Source: Acidobacteriota bacterium (lineage in GTDB: Bacteria > Acidobacteriota > Holophagae > Holophagales > Holophagaceae). Taken from it: a DNA stretch of 64,000 nt. This document shows positions 7,566 to 14,627 of this stretch, in pieces (the first letter of the stretch is position 1; the number at the start of each line of letters is the position of its first letter). A program made the translations under genes and the position numbers. The notes beneath the pieces were generated by a model that ran no database searches, was not told where the DNA came from, and worked only from the letters and a program-made list of their open reading frames with translations. The DNA lies in the NCBI GenBank assembly GCA_016195985.1, contig JACPYP010000012.1, positions 124,001 to 188,000 of the forward strand, written 5' to 3'.

Positions 7566-8741
7566 ATGCATCCCATCCATCGCACCGCCCTCCGCACTCA
7601 CGGTTTCACCGAATCCGTCATCCGGGGGATGACGCGGCTGGCCAACGAGCACGGCGCCATCAACCTCGCCCAGGGCTTTCCCAATTTTCCGGCCCCGGGA
7701 ATCATCAAGCAGGCCGCGGTGGCAGCCATCCGCGCCGATGTGAACCAGTACGCCATCACCTGGGGATCGAAGCGCCTGCGCGAAGCCCTGTCCCGGAAGA
7801 TGCAAGCCTTCTATGGCCTTGCGGTGGATCCCGAAACGGAGATCACCATCGCTTGCGGCGCCACGGAAGCCATGGCCTCGGTGCTGATGGCCTTGGTGGA
7901 TCCCGGCGGGGAAGTGGTCGTCTTCGAGCCCTGGTACGAGAACTACGGTCCCGATGCCGTGCTCTGCGGCGCGAAGCCCGTGAACGTGCCGCTGCCTGTG
8001 GGCCAGCCGCTGGATCTCGACCGGTTGGCCAAGGCCTTCGGGCCGAAGACCCGGGCCATCATCCTGAACACGCCCAACAATCCCACGGGCAAAGTCTTCA
8101 CGGCGGACGAGCTGGCGGGCATCGCGGCCCTTTGCCAGCGCCACGGCGCCTACGCCATCACCGACGAGATCTACGAACACATCGTCTACGTGGGGGTTCA
8201 CATCCCCATGGCCACGCTGCCCGGCATGGCCGAGCGCACCATCACCATTTCCGGCGCTTCGAAAACCTACGCCGTCACGGGCTGGCGCATCGGCACCATC
8301 ATCGCTCCCCGGGAGTTGACCGCCGCCATCCGCAAGGTCCACGACTTTCTCACCGTGGGCGCGCCCGCGCCGCTGCAGGAGGCGGTGGCCGTGGCCATGG
8401 AGGAACTGCCCCGCGGCTACTACACGCAGATGGCTGATGCCTACCGCCAGCGCCGCGACCTGCTTTGCGGCGCCCTTGCGCAGGCGGGGTTCAAGCTACA
8501 GCCGCCCCAGGGTGCCTACTACGTGCTGGCGGACTACTCGGCGCTGGGGCAGGAGGATGATGTGGCTTTCGCCACGCGCCTGGTGAAGGAGGCGGGAGTG
8601 GCCACGGTGCCCCTGTCGAGTTTCATCTCCGATCCGGCCTCGTCGCGCATGGTGCGCTTCGCCTTCTGCAAGACCGAGGACCTTCTGGCGGAAGCGGGGC
8701 AGAAGCTCCTCCGCTTCGCCGGGCAGAGGGCCCGGACGTGA
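7566..8741 (+). CDS. class I/II PLP-dependent aminotransferase (methionine/kynurenine/aspartate-type)
   Basis: 391 residues of fold-type I aminotransferase. Key features: GAINLAQGFPNFPAP near the N-terminus (the substrate-gate motif shared with YbdL and kynurenine aminotransferases), NTPNNPTGKVF, TDEIYEHIVY, and the PLP Schiff-base lysine in SGASKTYAVTGWRIG. It likely transfers amino groups from methionine, aromatic amino acids or glutamine to a keto acid; the exact donor is not visible. ATG at 7566 matches family N-termini; a longer frame reaching 7509 adds non-homologous sequence. The next gene starts inside its stop codon (GTGA overlap). Confidence 0.9.
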   Translation: MHPIHRTALRTHGFTESVIRGMTRLANEHGAINLAQGFPNFPAPGIIKQAAVAAIRADVNQYAITWGSKRLREALSRKMQAFYGLAVDPETEITIACGATEAMASVLMALVDPGGEVVVFEPWYENYGPDAVLCGAKPVNVPLPVGQPLDLDRLAKAFGPKTRAIILNTPNNPTGKVFTADELAGIAALCQRHGAYAITDEIYEHIVYVGVHIPMATLPGMAERTITISGASKTYAVTGWRIGTIIAPRELTAAIRKVHDFLTVGAPAPLQEAVAVAMEELPRGYYTQMADAYRQRRDLLCGALAQAGFKLQPPQGAYYVLADYSALGQEDDVAFATRLVKEAGVATVPLSSFISDPASSRMVRFAFCKTEDLLAEAGQKLLRFAGQRART

Positions 8742-11149
8742 AGGCCCTTCGGGCCCTGCCCCTCGTCTGCATCATGGCGGGCGCCTGGGCCGGGGAGCCG
8801 GAGAGCTTTGCGCCCTGGACCGAGGCGGCCGATCGCTTCCTGGCCCAGCCCTGGCGCACGTCCCATTATTCGGGCGCGGGGGCCAAGGCCAAGCTGACCC
8901 AGGCGATGCCCGGCCCCGAAGCCTGTTTCGAAACCCTCCTGGACGCCCTGCCGCCAGCCGCCCGCTGGTCCGAGCTTCCCGCCCTCACCCGGGCCCGCCT
9001 GCAGCCGGGCCTGCCGCGCACCAGCGCCGAGGTCCTCGCCTGGACGGATCGGCGCCTCCTGCACCTCTGGGCCCTGCGGCTTAATCAGCCCGGCTCCGAA
9101 GGGGAGATTCGCGCCACGCTGGACGACCTGAGGACGGTGCGCTGGCTCGTGGCGCGGGGGGGCATCACTACCAGCCCCGACGCGCGGCTGGACTACTCCT
9201 TCGCCGATCGCCTGGGCGCCCTCGACCGGATTCTGCGGCCCGATCTCCAGCCCGGGGGCGCCAGGCTTTCCGAGGCCGACGTTTTCCGGAACGCCCTCAT
9301 CGAGGCCCGGGAAACGCCCCAGCAGCGGGTGATCCGGGCCATCGGCCCAACGGCCTATGAGCGCCTGCGCGCCGTCGCCTCGGCCCGCCGGGAGGCTCCC
9401 GGGGTGGGCCGGGAGACCGATCCCGCCGCGGAGGCCTGGCTGGAATACGGTCCCCTTCCCGCCGTGGCCGAGGAGGCCTTCGGGGAGGCCCTTGGGGCTG
9501 ACGTGGCCCTGCCCCTGGAGGTGCCGGACCTGGTGCAGGCGCTGGGTTCTGAAGGGGCTCGAACCCTGGTCCAGGAAGCCTTGGCTGCCTCGGCGCCGCT
9601 GAACTGGTCCAGGGCCGGCGCCACGGCCCCCGCCGTGGCGCGGTGGCTGGCCGAGGGGCGCCTGGAGGCTCCCCCGGACTGGAGCACGGATTTCCTTCAG
9701 CAGCTGCTCGCCAGCTGGGAGGCCCCCACGGGCCCGCGGGCCGAAGCGGGCCTGGCCCTCATCGCGGCCCTGGAGGCGCGATCGGCCAAGGAACGGGCGC
9801 CCGGGGACGAGGAATCCGCCCTCGGCCTCGGCCCGGAGCGGGCCCTCTGCCTGCTGGCCTGCGGCCGGGGAGCCGAGGCGGCCCAGGTCTTCGAAAAGGC
9901 CAAAGCCTTTCCCGATTCGATTCCCGCCGCCGTGGAAGCTGAGCATCCCCGGGCCGTGGCCGAATGCCTCATGCGCCTGTTGCCCCATGAGCCGGTCCAG
10001 GGCGGGCATCAGGGCGGGCATCAGGGCGGAGCCTGGGCCCGGATGCAGGCCCAGGCCCACCGCGCCGGCCTGGACGCCGAGGCCCTGAAGGTGCTGGTGG
10101 ACCATCGGGAAAGCATCCAGGCGGAAGCGGAATCGCTCATCCTCAAGGCCCAACTCGACGCGGGCCAGACGGAGGCTGCTGCCGCGACCCTGCAGGACAT
10201 CGCCCGGCGGCCCTACGATTCGGAAGGCTACACCCCCACGGCGCGCCGCACCGAAGCCCTGCTGCAACTGCTCCGCCTGGGCGACGAGGCGCGCCGACCG
10301 GCCTGGAGCCAGTTGGCCCTGGATCGCCTGGGGGCTTTGATGCGCCACTGGACGACGGTCAAGGCTGGCTGCAGCGATGGCGGCGAACCCTGGGCGAAGC
10401 TGCCGGGCCTGCTGGCCGCCCGGGGGCGTCTCGACCTGGCCCTGAGCGCCGCGAAACTCAACGTGCGGTGGAGCCTGGCCAACGCCGGGATCGGCGAGGT
10501 GTTCCTCATGCCCGAGCAGGAGCGCCTGGCCTACGTGCTCAGGGGACCGGCCTCGGCCATGGCGGGCCTTCTCCAGGTGTGGGCCCTGCAGAAGAAACCT
10601 AAGGCCATCCTCGACGATTTGAACGGGAACCCGCATTGGCCGGCCCGGACCCTCGAGGCGGTGGCCGACTACGCCGATCCCAGCTTTCCTGAAACCCTCC
10701 GCAAGTCCATCGGCGCCACCGTGGCTGAAGCCCTGGAGGCCTTGGGACGCAAGAAGGAGGCCCAGCGCCTGCGGGACTTCAAGCCCGGGGGATTCCAGAC
10801 CGCCCTGGCGACCTACCTGGCCAGTGGCCGCGGCGCCGCCCTGTCCGCCGCGGACCGGGACCTTCTTCGGATGCTGGTGGTCAATGAGGTCGAGGATGAC
10901 GCGAGCCTCGACCTGGTGCGGATGGCGGGGGCCATGGAACGGGCCGACCTTCCCCCGGAGGCCTGGCGGGCGGTGGAACCGCGCTTCCTCCTGAAGGCCG
11001 CCGCCCGGCGCATCGACGGCTGGATGAAGGACGGCCCGCCGGTTCCCATGCCCCCGGTCCAGCGCCTGCGGACGGAATTCGTCGCCACGGCCACCGCGCT
11101 CGGCCCCGTGCGCGACGCGCTGCTCCTGAACGTGCCGGACGGTTATTGA
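8738..11149 (+). CDS. secreted alpha-helical (TPR/solenoid-like) protein of unknown function
   Basis: 803 residues. An N-terminal signal peptide (MKALRALPLVCIMAGAWAGEP) precedes an Ala/Leu/Arg-rich protein made of short helices, consistent with a TPR-like solenoid (for instance KVLVDHRESIQAEAES, EALEALGRKKEAQRL near the end). A small coding duplication gives HQGGHQGG near residue 425. No catalytic motif is visible. GTG start overlaps the aminotransferase stop by 4 nt, so the pair is coupled. Role unknown; probably an exported scaffold. Confidence 0.75.
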   Translation: MKALRALPLVCIMAGAWAGEPESFAPWTEAADRFLAQPWRTSHYSGAGAKAKLTQAMPGPEACFETLLDALPPAARWSELPALTRARLQPGLPRTSAEVLAWTDRRLLHLWALRLNQPGSEGEIRATLDDLRTVRWLVARGGITTSPDARLDYSFADRLGALDRILRPDLQPGGARLSEADVFRNALIEARETPQQRVIRAIGPTAYERLRAVASARREAPGVGRETDPAAEAWLEYGPLPAVAEEAFGEALGADVALPLEVPDLVQALGSEGARTLVQEALAASAPLNWSRAGATAPAVARWLAEGRLEAPPDWSTDFLQQLLASWEAPTGPRAEAGLALIAALEARSAKERAPGDEESALGLGPERALCLLACGRGAEAAQVFEKAKAFPDSIPAAVEAEHPRAVAECLMRLLPHEPVQGGHQGGHQGGAWARMQAQAHRAGLDAEALKVLVDHRESIQAEAESLILKAQLDAGQTEAAAATLQDIARRPYDSEGYTPTARRTEALLQLLRLGDEARRPAWSQLALDRLGALMRHWTTVKAGCSDGGEPWAKLPGLLAARGRLDLALSAAKLNVRWSLANAGIGEVFLMPEQERLAYVLRGPASAMAGLLQVWALQKKPKAILDDLNGNPHWPARTLEAVADYADPSFPETLRKSIGATVAEALEALGRKKEAQRLRDFKPGGFQTALATYLASGRGAALSAADRDLLRMLVVNEVEDDASLDLVRMAGAMERADLPPEAWRAVEPRFLLKAAARRIDGWMKDGPPVPMPPVQRLRTEFVATATALGPVRDALLLNVPDGY

Positions 11150-11338
11150 TACCAAGTGGCGTTCAATCCAATCGAAAAAGGGCTTTCACCACCAAGACAC
11201 CAAGGCACCAAGTTCCTTTTTGTCTCGTGTATCGCCGCAGGCGATACACGAGAAGAACTGCATGAACAGTGGCTATGGTTTTCCTTGGTGTCTTGGCATC
11301 TTGGTGGTGTTCCTTACCGTTTGAATTCGAACCTGTAG
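11150..11338. repeat. structured intergenic repeat, copy 1
   Basis: Begins TACCAAGTGGCGTTCAATCC and ends with a GAATTC-centred near-palindrome. An outer inverted repeat pairs CACCACCAAGACACCAAGG (11187-11205) with CCTTGGTGTCTTGG...TTGGTGGTG (11283-11309). Inside it lies a perfect 14-bp hairpin with loop GCA (11223-11253). Copy 2 starts at 11600 and a deleted copy at 23554. The short open frames across it are not coding, since the copies differ by indels and the signal is nucleotide symmetry. No transposase is nearby, so it is a non-autonomous or RNA-structured repeat. Confidence 0.85.
11223..11253. repeat. perfect 14-bp stem-loop inside repeat copy 1
   Basis: TCTCGTGTATCGCC pairs exactly with GGCGATACACGAGA around a three-base GCA loop. 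The identical 31-mer recurs at 11673-11703 in copy 2 and is absent from copy 3. Absence of sequence drift in the stem suggests recent copying or selection for the fold. Confidence 0.8.
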
Positions 11339-11365
11339 CCAAAAAACACGCGATCACTCTTTTCA

Positions 11366-11597
11366 AATCCGTGTAAATCCGTGCCATCCGTGGCCAACCC
11401 ATTTTTGGATAGCCGTGGGAACCATGAACATTGATCCCTAGGCGCCAGGTGGCTCTTGTCTTTATCTCCTCCATCCTGGCAAAAGAAAAGGGTTTAGCCG
11501 GGATGAACGGGATGGAGCCGGTGCTTTCCTTTCATCTGTGCGGACCCCTGCTCACAGGACTCATGGAAACCACGGATTAAACGGATGGACACGGATT
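11366..11597. repeat. inverted pair of CCGTG-rich motifs in the spacer between repeat copies
   Basis: The segment at 11366-11393 (AATCCGTGTAAATCCGTG then CCATCCGTGG) is nearly the reverse complement of 11570-11597 (CCACGGATTAAACGGATGG then ACACGGATT). The arms flank about 175 bp without genes. Together with the two hairpin repeats on either side this makes a 640-bp non-coding repeat block between the helical protein gene and the serine acetyltransferase gene. Similar ATCCGTG-type strings are familiar from intergenic regions of several environmental phyla, from memory. Confidence 0.65.
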
Positions 11598-11599
11598 CA

Positions 11600-11790
11600 T
11601 ACCAAGTTGAGTTCAATCCAATCGAAAAAGGGCTCTCACCACCAACACACCAAGGCACCAAGTTTCTTTTTGTCTCGTGTATCGCCGCAGGCGATACACG
11701 AGAAGAACTGCATGAACAGTGGCTCTTGTTTTCTTGGTGTCTTGGTGTCTTGGTGGTGATCTTTCATCTTTTGAATTCAAATCCGTATCA
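11600..11790. repeat. structured intergenic repeat, copy 2
   Basis: Direct-orientation second copy of the 11150 repeat: TACCAAGTTGAGTTCAATCC at the start, the CACCAC/CACCAAGG arm, the identical 14-bp hairpin (11673-11703), the GTGTCTTGGTGGTG arm, and a terminal TTTGAATTCAAA palindrome. It ends about 10 bp from the stop codon of the serine acetyltransferase gene, so it may serve as part of that gene's 3' end structure. Confidence 0.85.
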
Positions 11791-11799
11791 GGACGGACC

Positions 11800-12777
11800 C
11801 TAGATCATCCAATCGTCCGGCAGTTCCTGCTTGAACTCCTGGGGCTTGCGGTCCTTGTACTGCAGCTCGGGATTCTTGACGCTGACCCGGGTCTGCGGCG
11901 GCACGGATTGGGTGACGAACACGTTGCTGCTGATGATCGCCTCTTCCCCGATCACGGTTTCGCCGCCGAGGATGGAGGCGCCGGAATAGACGGTGACGCG
12001 GTCCTTCAGGGTGGGATGCCGCTTCACGCCGCGCAGGGACTGGCCGCCCCGGGTGGAGAGCGCTCCGAGGGTGACGCCCTGGTAGACCTTCACGTACTGG
12101 CCGATGGTGGTGGTCTCGCCGATGACCACGCCCGTGCCGTGGTCGATGAAGAAATAATCTCCGATCGTGGCGCCCGGGTGGATGTCCACGCCAGTGAGGG
12201 CATGGGCGTACTCGCTCATGATGCGGGGAATGAGGGGCACCTTCAGGCCGTGAAGTTCATGGGCGATGCGGTGCACGGTGATGGCGAAGACCCCGGGGTA
12301 GGAGAAGATCACTTCGTCCGTGTCGCCGGCGGCGGGATCGCCTTCGAAGGCCGCCTGCACGTCCGTGGCCAGGGTCGCCCGAAGCCTGGGGATGGCCGCG
12401 AGAAAGGCCTGCACGATGCCTTCGGCCGTGGCGTCCACGTTCAGGCAGGGGCTCCCGTGGCGCGTGGCCTGGTGCCGCAGCACGTTGAGGATCTGTTCGA
12501 GGAGGAGCCCCCGGATCTCGCCCAGCAATTCGCCCACGTAGTATTCGAGGGTCTGCGTGGTCAGATTCTGCTTGCCGAAGTACCCGGGGAAGAGCAGCTC
12601 GCGGAGCTTTTTCACCAGATCGATTACCGCGTCTCGGCTGGGCAGGGAGCCCGCGTCGATGTGACGGGTCAGGGGCTCCGCCAGGTCACTGGCCACGATG
12701 GCCGCCACCAGGGCCGAGAAAGGAGAGGAAGCCTCGCCGTTCAGAGAAAAGGCGGGCTTGGGTTCGGGCTGGGGCAT
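11800..12777 (-). CDS. cysE: serine O-acetyltransferase
   Basis: Makes O-acetylserine from serine and acetyl-CoA, the first step of cysteine synthesis. 325 residues: an N-terminal helical domain with about 60 extra residues (LFPGYFGKQNLTTQTLEYYVG), then RIMSEYAHALTGVDIHPGATIG entering the left-handed beta-helix, the catalytic DHGTGVVIGETTTIG, and LGALSTRGG for acetyl-CoA. The length and layout match the long EpsC/SAT class rather than short E. coli CysE. ATG at 12777 is preceded by AGGAG at six bases. A promoter with a palindrome lies about 90 bp upstream (12865-12910), suggesting regulation by sulfur status. Confidence 0.9.
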   Translation of the reverse strand: MPQPEPKPAFSLNGEASSPFSALVAAIVASDLAEPLTRHIDAGSLPSRDAVIDLVKKLRELLFPGYFGKQNLTTQTLEYYVGELLGEIRGLLLEQILNVLRHQATRHGSPCLNVDATAEGIVQAFLAAIPRLRATLATDVQAAFEGDPAAGDTDEVIFSYPGVFAITVHRIAHELHGLKVPLIPRIMSEYAHALTGVDIHPGATIGDYFFIDHGTGVVIGETTTIGQYVKVYQGVTLGALSTRGGQSLRGVKRHPTLKDRVTVYSGASILGGETVIGEEAIISSNVFVTQSVPPQTRVSVKNPELQYKDRKPQEFKQELPDDWMI

Positions 12778-12864
12778 AGGCGACTCCTGCGGGTTGGAAC
12801 TGGAACCTGCCGTGGGGCCTGGGGCCCCAGAAGCATCAACAGCCGCACAGACAGCGCATGGTCC

Positions 12865-12910
12865 TCCCGAGAATCGGGACAATCTAGCATGGGGAATCCA
12901 GCCGGATCAA
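12865..12910 (-). promoter_or_regulatory. cysE promoter with operator-like palindrome at the start site
   Basis: On the minus strand, TTGATC (12910-12905) is followed after 18 bp by TAGATT (12886-12881), each a 4/6 match to sigma-70 consensus. One base further, TCCCGA-N3-TCGGGA (12879-12865) is a perfect palindrome placed where transcription would start. A protein bound there would block initiation. This is inference from position and symmetry; the binding factor is unknown. Confidence 0.45.
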
Positions 12911-12932
12911 TCGGCCGCCCTTGGAGGCCGGG

Positions 12933-14627
12933 TCAGACGTCGGCGGCGTACAGGCTGAAGCTCACCTCGTTGCCGATGTCGTTGAAGGCCAGATCCCGCC
13001 CCAGGGCCTTCAGCAGGATGAGGCCCCGGCCATGGGGTTTCTCCGGCGCACTTTCCGTCTCCGCCAGGGCCCGCTGCCAATCGAAGCCCCGGCCGGGATC
13101 GGAGACCTGCACGAACAGATGGGAGAAGGCGCCATCGGGGGTGCGATTGACCAGGATCTCCACTCCCACGAACTGGGCGTGTGCCATCGAAAGCTGCGCG
13201 ACCCGGGCGGCCTCGTAGACCTCGAATTCGGATTCCTTGAGGGCCGAATCCAGGTCGAGCACGCCGTGATCCACTGCATTCACGATGGCCTCGGAGAGCA
13301 GCAGGGCCAACACCTGGGAGACAGCCTCAGGCACGCCCTGGCGCCCCAGGAAGCTCACCAGGTTGGAGCCCAGATCCCCGTAGTTCAGGGCGCGCGGATC
13401 GAAGGTGAACCTCAAGGTGATGCCGGTTTCCGTCTCGCGGGCGAGAGGCGCCGGGCCCAGGGAGCGCAGCGGCCTGGCTCGCTCCGGGCGGAAGGGCCAC
13501 AGGCACCAGCTCACATCGTCGGCCAGCTCCCGGTCGCGGATGCGCTCATCCATGAGGTTCTGCAAAAGGCTCGTGAAGCGGGTTTCGCCGCCCTTCTGGA
13601 ACAGGTCCAGGAGCTCGTCCTCTTCGACGATTTCGGAAAGCCCATCACTGCACGCGAAGAAGCAGTCCCCGTCCTCCAGCCGCAGGCGGTGCACTTCCAC
13701 GGGGCCCAGTTCATGCTGGATGCCAAGCGGAATGCAGGTGGAAGGGAAGCGCACCAGGCTCCCGTCCCGGCGGAAGACGTAGGCATCGGGCATGCCCGCG
13801 CTGGCCACGGACAGGTCGCCGGTGTGCATGTCCATGCGGAAGAGCAGCACGCAGGAGAATCGGCCCCCGGGCAGCAGCTCCCGCAGCTTGCGGTTGATCT
13901 CGGACAGCAGCCTCGGAAGGGGGAAGTCCCGCGCGGAAAGCGCGTTGAACACATCCATGGTGGGGATTTCGGAGATGCCCGCCATCAGGCCGTGGCCCAT
14001 GGGGTCGCAGATCATGCCGAAGTGGATGCCGGGGGCGCCCACATGGTAGGCGCAGACATCGCCGTTGATGCGCCGGGTGGACATGGTCTCCATGGCGAAA
14101 CCCTTGGGAAGCGCCGCCTTGCTTTGTTCCACCTGCCGCCCAAGCACGTGCTTCAGCACGGAGATTTCGTAATGCTCTTCCACTTCGCGCGCCAGAAGGC
14201 CCGCGTGGGCGGAGGCCATCTGCGCGATGGCCCGGATGCGCGTGCGCAGTTCCGGGCCATTGAAGGGCTTGGTGAGGAACTCCATGGCCCCGGCATCCAG
14301 ACATTCCTTCAGCACCTCCAGCTCGCCCAGCGCGGTGAACACCACGATGGGCACGAAGAGGGGCAGGTCGGCGAAGCGCTGTTTGATGGAGGTCCGGATC
14401 TGCCGGGTGAGTTCGGCCCCGTTCATGCCGGGCATCTTGTAGTCCGTGAGCACCAGATCCGGGGCATCCTCAAGGAACCGCGTCAGCCCCTCCTCGCCGT
14501 CCTCGGCCAGCAGCACCTCGAATCCGTCCGCTTCCAGCACTCCCTTGGTGAAACCCCGGGTGACGGAATCGTCGTCCACCACGAGGATCTTCAGCGCGGC
14601 TTGATCGTTGGGGCGCAGCATGGGCAT
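12933..14627 (-). CDS. response regulator-PP2C phosphatase-HATPase protein (RsbU/RsbW-like hybrid)
   Basis: 564 residues in three domains. A receiver (residues 12-130) has phospho-acceptor Asp62 and Lys120 in FLTKPF. A SpoIIE-type PP2C phosphatase follows, with metal ligands in INGD (190), DPMGHG (208), CSDGL and ADDVSW. The C-terminus is an anti-sigma-type histidine-kinase-like ATPase with the N box LSEAIVNAVDHG, then DPGRGF and HGRGLILL. Such proteins control partner switching: the phosphatase frees an anti-sigma antagonist, the kinase domain re-phosphorylates it. No STAS antagonist gene is nearby. Start chosen at ATG 14627 behind GGAAGAGA; the longer frame to 14687 lacks homology-like sequence. 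Confidence 0.88.
   Translation of the reverse strand: MPMLRPNDQAALKILVVDDDSVTRGFTKGVLEADGFEVLLAEDGEEGLTRFLEDAPDLVLTDYKMPGMNGAELTRQIRTSIKQRFADLPLFVPIVVFTALGELEVLKECLDAGAMEFLTKPFNGPELRTRIRAIAQMASAHAGLLAREVEEHYEISVLKHVLGRQVEQSKAALPKGFAMETMSTRRINGDVCAYHVGAPGIHFGMICDPMGHGLMAGISEIPTMDVFNALSARDFPLPRLLSEINRKLRELLPGGRFSCVLLFRMDMHTGDLSVASAGMPDAYVFRRDGSLVRFPSTCIPLGIQHELGPVEVHRLRLEDGDCFFACSDGLSEIVEEDELLDLFQKGGETRFTSLLQNLMDERIRDRELADDVSWCLWPFRPERARPLRSLGPAPLARETETGITLRFTFDPRALNYGDLGSNLVSFLGRQGVPEAVSQVLALLLSEAIVNAVDHGVLDLDSALKESEFEVYEAARVAQLSMAHAQFVGVEILVNRTPDGAFSHLFVQVSDPGRGFDWQRALAETESAPEKPHGRGLILLKALGRDLAFNDIGNEVSFSLYAADV

Follow-up and report, generated by a model that had tools for sequence, protein, structure and literature searches.

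The window, a 64,000-nucleotide stretch of the 4.26-Mb genome of an Acidobacteriota bacterium of the family Holophagaceae, contains a 650-bp gap between two convergent genes which is filled by two imperfect palindromes of about 190 bp, and the question raised by this locus is what these palindromes are and how they came to be there. The left-hand gene (8738–11149, + strand) encodes a protein of 803 aa without a Pfam family, and its stop codon abuts the first palindrome, E1 (11148–11336). The convergent gene on the right (11800–12882, − strand) is hexapeptide / serine O-acetyltransferase-like, the cysE model scoring below its cut-off and our home-made caller placing the start at 12777. The second palindrome, E2 (11598–11787), is a direct copy of E1 at a distance of 450 bp, with 94% identity over 139 nt in an ungapped alignment and 90% over 188 nt when gaps are allowed; the two direct copies of about 190 bp described in an earlier sequence-only reading of this DNA are real, and the coordinates given here are their better extents. 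In each copy, arms of 8-bp CACCAAGN units face arms of CTTGGTG units (+ strand; 11187–11212 and 11284–11309 in E1, 11636–11662 and 11733–11759 in E2), with a complementarity of 88% in E1 and 93% in E2, and a 31-nt hairpin, HP, lies between them. As that reading had stated, an identical 14-bp stem with a three-base loop is present within the CACCAAG/CTTGGTG inverted repeat of both copies: the 31-mer TCTCGTGTATCGCC-GCA-GGCGATACACGAGA has the same letters at 11223–11253 and 11673–11703, its consensus orientation (TCTCG..CGAGAC) being on the − strand. The proposed repeat end TTTGAATTCAAA is exact in E2 (11770–11781), while E1 has TTTGAATTCGAA instead (11320–11331).

The spacer M between the two copies contains a separate inverted repeat, the first arm of which, with ATCCGTG units, lies at 11366–11393 and the second at 11570–11597, abutting E2. 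This repeat (ATCCGTG/CACGGAT units) abuts E ends at several loci and has dispersed matches of its own. ORFs crossing the repeats at positions 11163–11474 and 11719–13218 of the window might enter annotations as spurious hypothetical proteins.

Folding z-scores were −8.6 for E2 on the + strand and −9.3 for E1 on the − strand, none of 200 shuffles being equally stable, and a search of the genome yielded 91 matches of the 641-bp stretch; together, these results exclude a chance origin of E1 and E2. The arm pattern, with up to three mismatches on both strands, had 62 matches in the same genome, as against none for the reversed-pattern control. The repeats could have proved to be unique or always confined to coding genes; in fact, of 56 repeat intervals in this genome, none shared more than 60 bp with a gene predicted by the home-made caller. 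In 51 stretches taken around own-genome matches, 31 arm pairs were located by script, with loops of 27–28 nt in six E copies and of 69–71 nt in 15; the other ten comprised E variants (loops of 61, 78, and 78 nt) and more distant compact palindromes (22–31 nt, one of 85 nt). Since the 42-nt step in loop length corresponds to the hairpin together with some 12 nt more, HP represents a nested module about 42 bp long. Compact E copies are present in a relative of the same genus (G020) too. Several other loci of the genome likewise have two direct E copies in a single gap, and the E1/E2 pair may equally derive from such an E–spacer–E composite.

The E copies are placed mainly downstream of genes, as expected of repetitive extragenic palindromes (REPs). 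Of the 31 E loci classified in this genome on the basis of gene calls by a home-made codon-usage caller rather than a standard annotation, 22 are in convergent, eight in co-directional, and one in divergent gaps, with one more locus (L040) unclassified. The window has 24 further gaps of 100 bp or more; of these, taken as a control, four are convergent and seven divergent (Fisher p of 1e-4 for convergence). Fourteen of 15 further arm-pattern loci are co-directional and one is convergent, so that divergent placement over all loci amounts to 1/46 (p = 0.002, the test being run on 45). This bias may reflect only selection against promoter gaps.

An exact-pattern search of named genomes, which gave 58 stretches, showed that the bare palindrome, without HP, occurs in several phyla, its carriers being Azospirillum, Rhodocyclaceae, Desulfuromonadales, Syntrophobacteraceae, Phycisphaerales, and Holophagaceae; records with the same type of palindrome belong largely to Holophagaceae/Geothrix within the Acidobacteriota. 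Near-identical CACCAAG palindromes (L084–L141) were observed in Alpha-, Beta-, and Deltaproteobacteria-type lineages, Planctomycetota, and Acidobacteriota, never in divergent gaps where these were classifiable. In Azospirillum the palindrome sits at gene 3′ ends: of 16 copies, nine are in convergent and six in co-directional gaps, with none divergent and one unclassified, whereas the background gaps number 7 (convergent), 26 (co-directional), and 20 (divergent). For Holophagaceae, 35 palindromes were distributed over 10 convergent and 22 co-directional gaps and no divergent one, with one overlapping a gene and two unclassified, while the background comprised 5 convergent, 34 co-directional, and 18 divergent gaps. 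The seven remaining stretches include three co-directional and four unclassified cases. The arms are nearly letter-identical across these groups, which is partly forced by the search pattern, and either horizontal transfer or constraint may account for the likeness. Neither HP nor the exact palindrome was found in viral contigs. No match to them was detected in plasmids, phages, or E. coli at an E value of 1e-5, which is weak evidence given the low sensitivity for 26-nt arms; raising the E value to 10 added a single 25-nt plasmid match.

Paired arrays of tandem units are also known from Geobacter, where multicopy nucleotide sequences of classes 1–3 have been predicted to be sites of a global regulator and consist, in the part of the description available, of 7–9-nt units in tandem, paired on opposite strands at variable distance (PMC2700814). 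As far as that part goes, E shares the arrangement of paired tandem-unit arrays on opposite strands and differs in the letters of its units, its mostly convergent or co-directional 3′ gaps, and its nested hairpin. By analogy with the proposal for G. metallireducens, the paired CACCAAG arrays could be sites of a global DNA-binding regulator, given the same layout of tandem octanucleotides paired on opposite strands in the accessible text (PMC2700814), but E avoids divergent, promoter-bearing gaps, and its unit letters vary across loci while the arms stay complementary, which makes this reading very improbable.

The complementarity kept between arms despite the different letters of the units, together with the convergent or 3′ placement in two distant lineages and the very stable fold of both strands, speaks for a second alternative, that E is a functional two-sided RNA structure of 3′ ends (a transcription barrier, an RNase III substrate, or an mRNA 3′ stabiliser) which has been kept by selection and has not spread. 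However, a scan for intrinsic terminators (a GC-rich stem followed by a T run), limited to loops of 3–8 nt and so leaving the long E stem outside its reach, found no sites between 10900 and 12100, the shuffled mean being 1.4, and Rfam covariance models gave no credible match, the best in the window scoring 8.6 bits versus a cut-off of 55. Moreover, the copy numbers of E differ widely between species of one genus, as is the case for mobile DNA. We regard this explanation as possible, though rather unlikely, and a 3′-end role of E as a candidate function, with no terminator-like site found.

HP is 30–31 nt long with a stem of 13–14 bp, and thus falls among the stem-loop palindromes of 20–50 nt by which REPs are recognised. 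Its consensus, TCTCGGTATC-SSSNNNSSS-GATAC-R-CGAGA, contains one bulged purine, and position 25 is G or A in all 90 distinct 30-mers; the scan favoured the consensus, and the conservation of the outer positions results partly from this selection of copies. In 106 of 117 copies, chosen by their outer arms only, the inner stem pairs at all three positions, the variants found being GCC/GGC, GGC/GCC, CGC/GCG, CCC/GGG, ACC/GGT, and AGC/GCT. Pairing was observed for 33 of 44 distinct inner 9-mers, compared with 12.4 on average and 21 at most when the partners were shuffled 2000 times. These compensatory changes show that the HP stem is structurally constrained.

The stems had been described as fully preserved, which does not hold for the family: most copies have a one-base bulge, the window pair and one other copy being exceptions, and among 15 near-matching sites of this genome three are perfect, including both window copies, with T opposite the otherwise bulged A. 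Other copies, in L013, L027, and one in L010, are perfect through the missing extra base. The perfect stems of the window are a derived state, the bulged purine being typical elsewhere, and they resemble the product of quasipalindrome correction, in which one arm of the stem would be copied from the other during replication and the bulge thereby lost.

With up to one mismatch, HP was detected in 24 of 297 sampled genomes of the phylum, all of them Holophagaceae: all 21 genomes of the genus, three of six other genomes of the family, and none of 270 elsewhere. A second, unrelated family of palindromes of about 200 bp in the genus also carries HP (L142, L145, L148, L149, L165, L292, and others), where HP lies beside another inner hairpin in a multi-branched fold.

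The RAYT/REP model is a frequent explanation for bacterial palindromic repeats. According to the portions of the literature available, REPs and BIMEs are short dispersed palindromes, mostly downstream of genes and often clustered, some of which have a conserved bulge in the stem (PMC3733652, PMC8266576). E and HP likewise are short dispersed 3′ palindromes, and the conserved bulge is found here as well; in size, bulge, and intergenic placement HP resembles REPs, for which the accessible text reports that the bulge is needed for cleavage (PMC8266576). HP, and perhaps E, might then be a REP mobilised by a Y1/HuH transposase that acts on single-stranded DNA in folded form, and a Y1_Tnp gene (PF01797) is indeed present in three of 36 other genomes of the genus (G014, G020, and G026). 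However, no HP/E motif was found in the 3.4-kb stretches around these three genes (L080–L082), and no Y1_Tnp gene was found in the genome holding the window or in most of the genus, although HP is present in them. The GTAG tag was absent from the foot of all 155 HP copies; a CGTC or TGTC tag on the reverse strand occurs in 30 and 46 of the 155, respectively, overlapping the stem, and most gene-end copies have neither. HP also differs from REPs and BIMEs in being nested in a longer palindrome and, elsewhere, in being accompanied by long duplications of gene ends. A RAYT was rejected as the driver on account of the missing Y1_Tnp gene, and movement of HP by a Y1/HuH enzyme appears improbable. 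A reverse transcriptase was set aside too, RVT_1 being present in only 9 of 23 genomes of the genus and absent from the HP-rich genomes G001 and G017. What remains is an abundant, structure-conserved hairpin family in a genome where no RAYT/REP enzyme was found.

The ends of E bear on another kind of mobility: E could be a classical MITE, its terminal inverted repeats (CTGATAC/GTATCAG ends) serving a DDE transposase that acts in trans. By eye, several copies have inverted ends, and E is dispersed and AT-richer than the genome, but no consistent short target duplication was apparent by eye, and no partner transposase was noticed; we consider a MITE origin distinctly improbable. The sequence-only reading had proposed either recent mobility, of a MITE or REP-like element, or an RNA role. 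Dispersed REP-like palindromes and a constrained stem are borne out, whereas recent mobility of the window copies is unsupported, because the stems are not fully preserved across the family, no consistent target duplication was apparent by eye, and Y1_Tnp was not found.

On balance, and with modest confidence, we favour the explanation that the window copies are REP-like, non-autonomous palindromes residing in gene 3′ gaps, mostly convergent ones, and consisting of an older, widespread CACCAAG-unit palindrome which has taken up a younger bulged HP module of about 42 bp specific to Holophagaceae. The dispersal, nesting, location, stem covariation, and family restriction are observed. Under this explanation, E would persist as a harmless or useful two-sided hairpin at the 3′ ends of convergent transcripts, and HP would spread as a folded single strand recognised by a putative protein. 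A literature search by repeat letters and words, with most subscription journals outside its coverage, gave no recognisable description of an HP/E family. The nested HP, which has spread through one family and elsewhere marks duplicated gene ends, may point to a mobile or regulatory hairpin of a type not yet recognised, and the surprising part lies outside the window, in the outer palindrome common to distant phyla and in gene-end duplications of near-constant length around HP.

Among the 155 distinct HP copies in the examined loci, 80 are flanked on either side by a similar segment, 74 are not, and one is at an edge. The unflanked copies are located in palindromes (E-like ones and others, such as the L142 family) or in single contexts, and a CRAACTGATATC-like tail frequently comes after them. 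For 65 of the 80 flanked copies, no more than 5 nt separate HP from the end of the repeated segment, T; arrays and artefacts of E pairs are among the other 15. Gene-end loci were grouped by gene manually, since arrays carry HP in the flank used for clustering, and their layout is V-T-HP-X-T′-gene. The added length is 102–108 bp in 46 of the 65 copies; the remaining values are 69, 136–139, 154–158, 170, 206–228, and 320 bp, several of which are array multiples. The length of T ranges from 19 nt to over 100 nt while X plus T has a nearly constant length, and X was therefore not taken as part of a mobile element. Among 23 genomes of the genus, the flanks of the DUF502 locus are joined with one T in 12, the insert is present in six, and five are unclassified; at the folP locus the flanks are joined in 21 of 23 and the insert is present in two, and at the polA locus at least 10 genomes of the genus have the insert.

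At the S20 and biotin-carrier loci, T accounts for 69–75 of about 75 nt or 115–124 of about 125 nt; this near-complete duplication supports HP combined with a target duplication of considerable length. The match of the non-coding part X has been lost at most gene-start loci. The DUF502 locus of the genome holding the window (G000), where T is identical at 29 of 29 positions, yet X has no visible likeness to the native upstream sequence, counts against a simple target-duplication model.

The intact gene body lies on the T′ side in all 62 copies with a called gene (of the 65), with 35 copies of start type and 27 of end type, named after the part of the gene affected. Testing covered 28 of the former (9 genes; the rest are mostly first array units), and 27 share one frame, in which HP encodes the peptide S-V/A-S-P/A-x-x-I/M-R-E-T/A; 25 of the 27 end-type copies (8 genes) are in one common frame. 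Copies within a gene are orthologous, the independent numbers being nine and eight genes, and a sequence-specific target could also produce the frame bias. In many copies the leader ORF stops shortly past the rebuilt start, at +4 (DUF502, uppS), +8 (polA), or +11 (folP), while others stop upstream of it (ThiF at −8/−9, one uppS copy at −19, array copies). In some start-type copies, no start codon stands at the aligned position of the left copy. The targets include polA, folP, uppS, rpsT, biotin and lipoyl carriers, relatives of ThiF/MoeB and NFACT/RqcH, a manC-like gene, cydB, adenosine deaminase, and DUF502.

MITEs and Rickettsia palindromic elements are non-autonomous palindromes, some of which lie within coding frames. 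At its gene-end loci, HP differs from them in that a restored gene end lies next to the hairpin, which is not read through inside the protein. One could tentatively propose, although we lean against it, that HP is a new mobile or installable hairpin of Holophagaceae: a target duplication of about 75 bp (also about 39, 125, or 140 bp) near a gene end would leave one intact gene and, at gene starts, would create a leader ORF from the native N-terminus and the hairpin peptide, its stop often overlapping the rebuilt start codon, that is, a coupled uORF with a structured hairpin before housekeeping genes such as polA, folP, and uppS; the window copies would then be HP captured in older 3′-end palindromes. 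The orientation of the HP duplications is fixed and their reading frame nearly so. If the duplication is an insertion footprint, it points to an integration chemistry for which we found no known counterpart; should the leader ORFs prove regulatory, they would form a family-wide control layer over essential genes.

HP also forms tandem arrays at gene ends. Six tandem copies with a period of 68–71 bp were observed at the 3′ end of an adenosine deaminase gene (L154, 2778–3121), and the DUF502 locus of genome G008 (L209) has three HP units compared with one in others. Since the number of units at the DUF502 locus differs between species, HP arrays expand or contract.
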